Below are positions 38,648 through 41,706 of a stretch of DNA of 41,706 bases, in pieces. The notes beneath the pieces were generated by a model, which did no database searches, had not been told where the DNA came from, and was given only the letters and a program-made list of their open reading frames with translations. The DNA is from an uncultured Caryophanales bacterium (GTDB lineage: Bacteria; Bacillota_I; Bacilli_A; RF39; UBA660): the NCBI GenBank assembly GCA_947564265.1, contig CANOBK010000014.1, positions 1 to 41,706 on the forward strand, written 5' to 3'. The first letter of the stretch is position 1, and each line of letters begins with the position of its first letter. A program made the translations under genes and the position numbers.

Positions 38648-39577
38648 ATGAAAGAAAAAAAGAGTCGGTTAAGTTTACCAATCAATCATGAATATATTTA
38701 TAAGTTAAGTGATCGGAAAGAAGGGGAACCCTTTCCAATTGTATCTGATGTTATGTTTCATACCATGTTAAACAATGAATCAAGAAAGCAATATGTATCT
38801 TATTTCTTATCTTTATTAATAGGAAAAGATAGAAAAGAGATCGAAGAAAATATTATCTTTGTTAAAAATAAACTAGATAAGAAAAACTATCATGATTCAA
38901 GTAAGACCGTAGATTTTGTCTGTGAGATTGAAGAAGAAATCTATAATATTGAGATGAATAATAATATAAGTATTGAATCTTTAGAACGAAATATTTCCTA
39001 TATTAATGACTTATATAAATCAAAGATGAAAAGGGGAAGTGAATATCAGTATCAAAAGTCGATTCAGATTAATCTTAATAACTTTTCCTTTGAAGGAGAT
39101 CACAACACGATTGAAGTTTATCAATTACGAGATGAAGAAGGAATATCATTAACAGATAAAATTACAATTATTTATATCTATCTTCCCAAAATAAGAAAGA
39201 AATTATATAATGGAGATAAGTTGACGGAACTAGAGAGACTTCTTTTAGTATTTAATGAAGGAAGTCCTGACCGTTTAGAAAATCTAATAGGGGAGGATGA
39301 AGTAATGAGTGAATATCGGAAGGATGCATTGGAAGCATCAGATGATGAAGAAATTATCGGACTTTACGATAAAGAGTTACATTTAGAGATGTTAAGAAAT
39401 ACAGAATTACATCATGCAAAAGAAGAAGGACTAGAAGAAGGAATTGAGAAGGGTAGACGTGAAGGCATTTTTGATACTGTAAGAAGTTTATTAAAAAGCG
39501 GTGTAGATAAAAAAATAATCATGGAAGCAACAAATTTAACAGAAGAAGAAATCAAAAATATTTCAGAGAGTAATTAA
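38648..39577 (+). CDS. Rpn-family PD-(D/E)XK nuclease
   Basis: A 309-residue member of the Rpn/YhgA-like family (often called PD-(D/E)XK nuclease family transposase). It has PIVSDVMFHTMLNNE, the metal-binding VDFVCEIEEEIYNIEMNN (Asp and Glu, with Asn where Gln is more usual), and a C-terminal helical tail with HAKEEGLEEGIEKGRREGIFDTVRSLLKSG. Related Rpn proteins promote RecA-independent recombination in E. coli; here the role is not known. No inverted repeats or target-site duplication were seen around it. AAAAGGAG precedes the ATG. Confidence 0.85.
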   Translation: MKEKKSRLSLPINHEYIYKLSDRKEGEPFPIVSDVMFHTMLNNESRKQYVSYFLSLLIGKDRKEIEENIIFVKNKLDKKNYHDSSKTVDFVCEIEEEIYNIEMNNNISIESLERNISYINDLYKSKMKRGSEYQYQKSIQINLNNFSFEGDHNTIEVYQLRDEEGISLTDKITIIYIYLPKIRKKLYNGDKLTELERLLLVFNEGSPDRLENLIGEDEVMSEYRKDALEASDDEEIIGLYDKELHLEMLRNTELHHAKEEGLEEGIEKGRREGIFDTVRSLLKSGVDKKIIMEATNLTEEEIKNISESN

Positions 39578-39816: not shown

Positions 39817-39845
39817 TTGATAAAAAAATAGATTTTTGCTATGAT
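39817..39845 (+). promoter_or_regulatory. Promoter of gltX
   Basis: TTGATA (39817-39822), 17 bp, TATGAT (39840-39845). The -10 overlaps an in-frame ATG at 39841, so that ATG cannot be the start; the ATG at 39877 is. Confidence 0.75.
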
Positions 39846-39876
39846 AGGGTTATATTTAAAAGGGTGTGATTATAGA

Positions 39877-41532
39877 ATGACAAATAAAGAATTAGCAGAT
39901 TTAATCTTTCCGAATGTTACCAAAACAATCGAGGATTATGAAAAAATGTATCCAGAAAGAAATTTACCAGAAGGAGCAGTAGTATCTCGTTTTGCCCCTA
40001 GTCCTACGGGATTCGTTCATATGGGAAGTTTACGTTCTGCCTTTATCGCAAGAAAAGTTCCAAAAGATACGAATGGTGTTTTTTTCTTAAGAATTGAAGA
40101 TACGGACGGAGCAAGAACGGTTGAAAACGGAATTCAAGGAATTATTGATGATTTAAAAAACTTTGATATCACGATCGATGAAGGGGTTGTATCAGAAACA
40201 GAACAAATCGGGGAGTATGGACCTTATATTCAAAGTGAAAGGAAAGAAATCTATCAAACATTTGCGAAACATTTAATAGAACAAGGAATGGCTTATCCAT
40301 GTTTTTGTACACCAGAAGAAATCGAAGAAATTCGGCAAATGCAAGAATTAAATAAAGAACGAATTGGATACTATGGAAGTTATGCAGAATGTCGTTTCCT
40401 AACGAATGAAGAACGTGCAGAAAGAATTAAAAAGGGAGAATCTTATATTATCCGTTTGAAATCGCCTGGAGATTTTAATAAAAAAATTGTGTTAAATGAT
40501 CTAGTCCGTGGAAAAATTGAATTTCCAGAAAATGATTTAGATATCGTATTAATCAAAAGTGATGGATTACCACTTTATCACTTTGCACATCTAGTAGATG
40601 ATCATTTAATGAGAACAACACATGTGATTCGTGGAGATGAGTGGATTTCTTCTACCCCAGTTCATTTACAACTATTTCAAGTATTCGGATTTGAGCCTCC
40701 TAGATATGCCCATTTAGGAACAGTTATGAAGGTTGATGAAAATGGAACGAGAAGAAAACTTTCCAAAAGAAAAGATCCAGAAGCTGCGGTTAGTTACTAT
40801 CATCAAAAGGGAATTCCAGTAGAGGCAGTTAACTTATATCTAATGACGATAGCGAATACCAACTTTGAAACATGGTGGGATCAAAATCAAACACTGGGAA
40901 TTGATGACTTTAAATTTGATTTTAAGAAGATGAGTGTTTCAGGAAGCTTATTTGATTTAGAAAAACTAATGAATATTTCTAAAAGTTATATCAGTAGATT
41001 AAAAGCAAGTGAGGTTTATGACAGATTATTAGTTTGGTCAAAAGAATTTGATACAGAATTCGCTTCTATCTTAGAAAAAAATAGAGACTATGCTATTTCT
41101 ATTTTCAATATTGAAAGAGAGCAAAAGAAACCAAGAAAAGATTATGCATCTTTCTCAACAATCAAAGACTGTGTTTGGTATATGTTTGATGAATATTTTA
41201 CAGGAGATTTAGAATATCAATTTGGAAAAGTGAATGATCCAGAAGAAATTCATCATATCTTAAAAACATATATTGAAAAATACTATGATGAGAATGATGA
41301 TAAAGATACCTGGTTTAGCAAAGTAAAAGAATTATCAGAAGAATTAGGTTACTGTAGTGATATGAAAGCTTACAAAGCAGATCCAGATACCTACAAAGGT
41401 AGTGTTGCGGATGTTTCTACAGTAATTAGAGTAGGCGCAACTACAAGTTCTATGACGCCAGATTTGTATGAAATTTTAAGATTGTTAGGAAAAGAAAAAA
41501 CAAAAGAACGCTTTGAAAAACTATATCGTTAA
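39877..41532 (+). CDS. gltX: Glutamyl-tRNA synthetase
   Basis: Charges tRNA-Glu (and possibly tRNA-Gln where GatCAB is used). The 551-residue class I enzyme has the signature FAPSPTGFVHMGSLRSAF (HMGS as HIGH), FFLRIEDTD, HLVDDHLMRTTHVIRGDEWISSTPVH and KLSKRKDPEAAV (KMSKS-like). It is longer than typical bacterial GluRS because of the C-terminal extension. The start at 39877 is fixed by the promoter overlap at 39841. It follows the tRNA-Gln gene as its own transcript. Confidence 0.95.
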   Translation: MTNKELADLIFPNVTKTIEDYEKMYPERNLPEGAVVSRFAPSPTGFVHMGSLRSAFIARKVPKDTNGVFFLRIEDTDGARTVENGIQGIIDDLKNFDITIDEGVVSETEQIGEYGPYIQSERKEIYQTFAKHLIEQGMAYPCFCTPEEIEEIRQMQELNKERIGYYGSYAECRFLTNEERAERIKKGESYIIRLKSPGDFNKKIVLNDLVRGKIEFPENDLDIVLIKSDGLPLYHFAHLVDDHLMRTTHVIRGDEWISSTPVHLQLFQVFGFEPPRYAHLGTVMKVDENGTRRKLSKRKDPEAAVSYYHQKGIPVEAVNLYLMTIANTNFETWWDQNQTLGIDDFKFDFKKMSVSGSLFDLEKLMNISKSYISRLKASEVYDRLLVWSKEFDTEFASILEKNRDYAISIFNIEREQKKPRKDYASFSTIKDCVWYMFDEYFTGDLEYQFGKVNDPEEIHHILKTYIEKYYDENDDKDTWFSKVKELSEELGYCSDMKAYKADPDTYKGSVADVSTVIRVGATTSSMTPDLYEILRLLGKEKTKERFEKLYR

Positions 41533-41547
41533 TTGAATAGTAAAATG

Positions 41548-41574
41548 AAAGGATGGTGAAAGCCATTCTTTTTT
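41548..41574 (+). terminator. Intrinsic terminator of gltX
   Basis: AAAGGATGG (41548-41556) pairs with CCATTCTTT (41563-41571), one G-U, ending in a T-run. Confidence 0.75.
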
Positions 41575-41660
41575 ATGCCCAAAATTCGACATATTTCTTG
41601 GTAAGAAAATGGTAAAAAAATAATAACCAACATCCCAATTTTAGATGATTATATTCTGGG

Positions 41661-41692
41661 TTGACAAAAAAGTCTGGGGGGGGGGGTATAAT
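41661..41692 (+). promoter_or_regulatory. Promoter with a G11 tract in the spacer
   Basis: TTGACA (41661-41666) and TATAAT (41687-41692) are both perfect consensus boxes but 20 bp apart, and 11 of the 20 spacer bases (41676-41686) are a run of G. Loss of three G would give the optimal 17-bp spacing, so slippage could switch expression of the gene beyond the window end. The -10 is also followed by an AT-rich start region. Confidence 0.75.
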
Positions 41693-41706
41693 TGGATTAT
41701 AATTAG

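Follow-up and report, generated by a model that had tools for sequence, protein, structure and literature searches.

Switches seated in promoter spacers are known above all from Neisseria. The published cases in Neisseria meningitidis are porA, fetA and opc, and at porA the gain or loss of a single base in the spacer homopolymer alters transcription (PMC2791445, PMC3899988; here and below, published systems are cited from excerpts of the papers named). A promoter of the same general design closes the window studied here, which is the whole stretch of DNA analysed (41,706 bp) and the entire contig C14 (CANOBK010000014.1) of an uncultured Caryophanales bacterium (assembly G000, GCA_947564265.1; 1.68 Mb, 25 contigs, completeness 89.6%). 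As in the excerpted accounts of porA, opc and fetA, a homopolymer lies between the -35 and -10 boxes and a surface-protein gene is indicated downstream. Unlike the neisserial promoters, the window promoter combines two perfect hexamers with a G run placed directly on the -10 box, the effect of tract length is a prediction, the host belongs to a low-GC, uncultured, Bacilli-related family, and up to 21 copies occur in one relative's genome of ~1.4 Mb (G135). An earlier note on this DNA had called spacer homopolymers an established phase-variation device, naming porA, and these precedents bear it out.

Other described tracts resemble the window promoter in part. In the gut commensal Bifidobacterium breve, a G tract switches pilus genes, and thus surface appendages, with a mixture of lengths in the population, and the excerpt mentions further promoter-spacer G tracts without detail (PMC9187656); the use of a G tract for surface genes is shared, but the pilus tract lies inside the coding sequence and acts by frameshift, in a different phylum. 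The BspA-like leucine-rich surface genes of Candidatus Mycoplasma girerdii vary in tract length among metagenome reads, and the majority form of several genes (the example given is BspA-like) is predicted to be OFF (PMC5476646). Tract-associated leucine-rich surface proteins are common to both cases, whereas the repeats in that excerpt are mostly dinucleotides causing frameshifts within genes rather than lying in promoter spacers. At the Spy1336/R28 locus of Streptococcus pyogenes, a one-base change in an intergenic T tract changes transcript abundance for an LPXTG protein gene (PMC7098570); the Bacillota host, the intergenic homopolymer and the LPXTG-type gene are shared, but the T tract, as excerpted, separates a divergent gene pair and is not placed between perfect -35 and -10 boxes. 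The tracts in the excerpt of PMC2831843 lie within coding genes. No description of a promoter-spacer G-tract switch in the organisms treated here was found among open-licence papers; judged by this literature, the mechanism is already known, and the hosts, the copy number and the spacing off 17 bp appear to be new.

A G tract inside a consensus promoter

The relevant features of the window are as follows.

41661..41666, + strand: -35 hexamer TTGACA, perfect consensus, read from the sequence
41667..41675, + strand: 5' part of the spacer, 9 bp, non-repetitive, read from the sequence
41676..41686, + strand: G11 tract, the presumed site of slippage; the assembly has just one other run of at least eight G
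41687..41692, + strand: -10 hexamer TATAAT, perfect consensus, abutting the G tract, read from the sequence
41693..41706, + strand: presumed start of the transcribed leader, cut by the contig end 14 bp past the -10 box; the ends of contigs C21 and C1 agree with its first bases
39841..41532, + strand: glutamate--tRNA ligase open reading frame (gltX), the upstream neighbour (Pfam tRNA-synt_1c)
38648-39577: PD-(D/E)XK nuclease family transposase, upstream of the gltX region (Pfam PDDEXK_2)

The two boxes are separated by 20 bp (9 bp plus G11), an arrangement that has the homopolymer between the boxes as in porA-type phase variation. The coordinates that the earlier note gave for the perfect boxes, the tract and the spacer are exact, and the AT-rich setting it described agrees with the G+C content of the window (29.9%). 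Judged from sequence, the window promoter is likely a slipped-strand phase-variable promoter of the porA type. A putative sigma-A-type promoter with a slippery G tract in its spacer would gain or lose Gs by slipped-strand mispairing at replication; the distance between the boxes, 20 bp in the assembly, would change with it, and transcription would be toggled between a weak or OFF state and an ON state near 17-18 bp. The switched gene would be that of a 1025-amino-acid vWA/DUF285 leucine-rich surface protein at the end of contig C21, followed by an LPXTG-type gene. We infer both slippage in the source species and the effect of length on transcription.

The G run is what sets this promoter apart from background. 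No run of nine G arose when the window was dinucleotide-shuffled 100 times, whereas TTGACA-N14-24-TATAAT without a condition on G is expected 0.31 times per window and occurred at least once in 26 of 100 shuffles; since the pair of boxes alone is not rare, the significance rests on the G run inside the spacer. The whole assembly contains two runs of at least eight G, both between perfect TTGACA and TATAAT boxes. The second (C1:243658-243688, minus strand) is also G11, has a spacer of 19 bp and is followed, 31 bp after TATAAT and behind a Shine-Dalgarno-like AGGAG, by the start codon of a 1157-amino-acid protein whose N-terminal segment is hydrophobic and which has a vWA domain and eight leucine-rich DUF285 stretches (Pfam DUF285 2.5e-136, VWA 1.7e-8). 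A surface product thus stands directly behind the C1 copy, and is assigned to the window copy by synteny only. The window copy might instead be a product of chance or an assembly artefact at the contig end, but this is highly improbable: the C1 copy lies ~7 kb inside a 250-kb contig, many copies in the family are internal to contigs, and the shuffles yielded no G9.

Three paralogues of the 1157-amino-acid gene, two following it on C1 and one on C16, have perfect-hexamer promoters with non-repetitive spacers of 18 bp, so one gene family mixes fixed promoters with a G-tract promoter one base longer. The earlier note had proposed that eight G would restore a 17-bp spacer; the arithmetic holds, but, given these three 18-bp spacers, nine G (18 bp) is just as likely to be ON.

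The tract is not part of a reading frame: it lies 3' of the gltX stop (41532), and no open reading frame of at least 80 amino acids spans it among those listed, which do not include frames running off the end. A scan for promoters with spacers of 16-18 bp did not report the window promoter, as expected given its 20-bp spacer. Consensus hexamers 19-20 bp apart typify MerR-type promoters, and a MerR-like, DNA-distorting regulator could bind the spacer and activate the long-spacer promoter. This explanation has very little probability, as no inverted pair of at least 12 nt lies within the spacer; the only pair in 41400-41706, a stretch that lacks the sequence 3' of the promoter, is 12 nt long and 83% matched, with one arm inside the promoter and the other 91 bp upstream. 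The flanking inverted repeats of an invertible promoter were sought in this same stretch, with that pair as the only one present.

Synteny and the gene behind the window promoter

Contigs C21 and C1 start (read inwards, reverse strand) with AATTGGATTATAGATAGG, which is close to the end of C14; between C14 and C21, 12 bases match and two of the next five differ. C14 shares no exact overlap of at least eight bases with C21, C1 or C16, so its end could not name the next contig and synteny was used instead. In the closest relative, G010, whose gltX product is 93% identical, an orthologue of a 696-amino-acid gene of C21 follows gltX after ~160 bp, and a stretch of ~13.7 kb following gltX is collinear with C21 at 74% nucleotide identity. 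On C21, the gene of the 1025-amino-acid vWA/DUF285 protein (DUF285 1.2e-50, VWA 1e-13) precedes this 696-amino-acid gene, whose product has SpaA and LPXTG-anchor matches, and further secreted-looking open reading frames follow. The simplest contig order given the G010 synteny is C14 then C21, in which case the window promoter would head the C21 surface gene cluster. We infer the physical join from this synteny, and the 1025-amino-acid surface-protein gene is very probably the one behind the window promoter, with the LPXTG-type gene next. The earlier note had placed the controlled gene just past the window and thought it might be a surface or defence gene; the order in G010 points to a surface gene.

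Besides the missing end overlap, two observations speak against this order. The gltX junction of G010 has neither the G tract nor the 1025-amino-acid gene, and the end of C11 carries 55 bases common to C21 and C1, so that C11 could precede C21. On this basis the switch could be real with the truncated gene at the C1 end as its target, C21 following C11. Such a target is unlikely, given that the C21 genes stand directly after gltX in G010; moreover, the C21 and C1-end genes start with nearly the same surface-protein N-terminus.

Conservation of the tract at the gltX junction across the genus was not seen: no run of at least seven G occurs within up to 1.5 kb downstream in the 10 relatives' loci with a located gltX end (the ends in L230, L231, L233, L237, L238 and L239 were not located, and these loci were left out).

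A further G-tract promoter of the same kind, on the minus strand of C11 (G000:C11:64-1142, L245), is split by a 1079-bp insertion, which leaves TTGACA with six G to one side and five G with TATAAT to the other. Inverted ends of 18 bp (16/18 alike) bound the insert, whose one open reading frame, of 209 amino acids, has no Pfam or PADLOC match; a single further copy of the end sequence is present in G010, and a search of the other 16 genus genomes found no more.

Genes behind related G-tract promoters

Related promoters were collected from one genome per species with a pattern that allows spacers of 14-20 bp and admits only G runs in contact with the -10 box; the resulting set is a sample. The 152 matches listed comprise five duplicates and 147 unique promoters, of which 123 have a downstream open reading frame and 24 have none (14 of these near a locus end). 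Among these matches, the median distance from promoter to start codon is 36 bp, and a Shine-Dalgarno-like match precedes 114 of the 123 downstream frames. Direct contact between G run and -10 box, which the pattern requires, holds for all 119 named promoters; in loci from looser patterns it holds for 15/28 promoters.

A strongly hydrophobic N-terminus (best 15-residue mean of at least 1.9 within the first 60 residues) is present in 92/123 downstream proteins versus 151/568 other proteins of the same loci (Fisher p 3e-23, matches listed), the latter being mechanically called frames of at least 100 amino acids that may include spurious ones. The difference persists at cut-offs of 1.6 (98 vs 176) and 2.2 (78 vs 121), and in loci of the window's own family the proportion is 19/22. 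Pfam matches were read for 104 of the 123 downstream frames (Shine-Dalgarno-like match, at most 110 bp away, at least 80 amino acids). Among the 25 listed of 67 matched families are BspA-type LRR_5 (10 proteins), VWA_2 (3), DUF285 (2), N_methyl (2) and the YSIRK signal (2); ABC transporter ATPases account for four of the same 104 proteins. Defence genes, which the earlier note had offered beside surface genes, were rejected as the usual target; 21 PADLOC families were matched among these 104 proteins, and the UzuA match was the one examined further.

In Streptococcus henryi DSM 19005 (L142), a G10 promoter with a 20-bp spacer stands 26 bp before the gene of a protein that matches UzuA, a defence family (1.5e-51); this is possibly a phase-variable defence gene. 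In G135 (L209-L213), G250 (L200-L203) and G075 (L195-L199), several similar secreted-looking proteins each have their own near-identical G-tract promoter, except at L202 (G250), where the promoter is followed by a short frame without such an N-terminus. In the window's own genus, G006 (L012) and G007 (L013) have G-tract promoters with 13 and 12 G and spacers of 21 and 19 bp before closely similar 390-amino-acid proteins; that of L013 lacks a strongly hydrophobic N-terminus and matches no family above the cut-off.

Spread among related bacteria

The arrangement recurs widely in the family. A loose pattern matched 49/291 genomes of the same family in 38/150 genera, and 32/206 genomes at good completeness, with no match to the reversed-pattern control; a stricter pattern applied class-wide matched 17/395 genomes, again with no match to the reversed control. 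The scan of one genome per species returned at least 119 stretches, mostly titled Clostridia and Bacilli, and the matches listed include some from Spirochaetota, Fusobacteriota, Saccharibacteria and others. This recurrence against an empty control, together with the same arrangement before the C1 surface gene, supports the putative phase-variable promoter proposed in the earlier note. All runs of at least eight G lie in such promoters in G000 (2/2), G075 (8/8) and G303 (2/2). Twenty runs of this length outside perfect promoters were read by eye, and several lie in near-perfect ones (TTGACA with TAGAAT, L175 and L179), whereas L177, L186 and L187 are among those that do not.

In G283 (L181, L182), G runs of 22 and 18 stand directly after TTGACAAAT, near contig starts. 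Spread by phages found no support, with one match in one viral-contig scan (stricter pattern). That match, L174:2319-2344 on the minus strand, has a 14-bp spacer and lies upstream of a 308-amino-acid frame whose N-terminus looks hydrophobic and whose match to Phage_Mu_F falls short of the curated cut-off; its surroundings presumably represent a phage tail module.

Tract-length and spacer-length differences

The number of Gs differs between promoters whose spacers are otherwise alike. Copies in one genome that are identical in spacer except for the G run form 20 groups among the listed matches, and more than one G number occurs in 15 of them, in a comparison of the spacers of paralogous promoters rather than of cells of a clone, with assembly error possible. 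For this grouping, 145 promoter strings from 42 genomes were taken from the listed family rows, together with two rows from the narrower genus pattern, leaving out seven listed rows with the -10 box at least 24 bp away. These differences favour the phase-variable promoter of the earlier note. A different explanation is that the tract sets a fixed, weak promoter strength through a long spacer and a stiff G run, with no switch. Such a role would suit spacers narrowly grouped at 18-20 bp and the five of 20 groups that are invariant (for example G135, 8/8 copies G9), but G number varies in the other 15 groups, a fixed strength could be set in AT-rich genomes without a homopolymer of 8-16 G, and the association with surface genes fits contingency loci; we consider this explanation unlikely.

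Spacer lengths show a distinct pattern. Among perfect-hexamer sites that lack a G run in the loci examined, 17 bp is the commonest spacer (13/30 within 14-21 bp). In the window's own genome, 16/34 G-free sites have 17 bp and seven have 18 bp; the reversed G-free pattern gave 13 matches versus 36 forward, so part of these sites is background. G-tract promoters avoid 17 bp, with 7/148 of the matches listed within 14-21 bp (Fisher p 2.5e-7), maxima at 16 and 19 bp, and spacers collecting at 18-20 and 15-16 bp. Spacers of 17 bp account for 5/110 distinct ones in the family list, 0/35 in the class list (35 of 37 rows, two G000 rows left out) and 7/136 with one count per isolate and spacer; the collected loci and the family list overlap in part. 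This shortage is a simple quantitative pattern for which two readings remain, namely that populations are mostly OFF, most cells holding these promoters in that state, or that the G run shifts the best spacing. It is conceivable, although we put this forward tentatively, that up to ~20 surface genes per genome stand behind G-tract promoters one or two bases off the 17-bp optimum in most cells, in many uncultured Bacillota lineages.

Several findings weigh against the favoured reading. The arrangement is patchy, being absent from 242/291 family genomes and present in 3/18 genus genomes by a narrower pattern, and in some genomes G runs greatly outnumber perfect promoters (G151, 49 runs and two promoters). 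Downstream proteins without a hydrophobic N-terminal segment at the cut-off used number 31/123, and a prepilin-motif expression was not enriched (1/123 downstream vs 4/568 others). In addition, homopolymer lengths in short-read assemblies may be wrong. Loss of mismatch repair is unsupported as a cause: a MutS_I domain was found in 16/18 genus genomes, including G000, so no such loss would raise slippage and instability would rest on tract length alone.

Significance

The arrangement occurs in 38 of the 150 genera sampled from a single family, which suggests that many uncultured bacteria routinely vary their surface proteins from cell to cell; these bacteria are largely host-associated according to record titles, the sole source for this trait. 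A switch state of this kind is written in tract length and is readable from metagenomes without culture. If such promoters are indeed held off 17 bp in most cells, an assembled genome would record a mostly-OFF antigen repertoire, with rare ON cells arising by slippage, and tract lengths from metagenomes could reveal which surface state organisms that have never been cultured are in.
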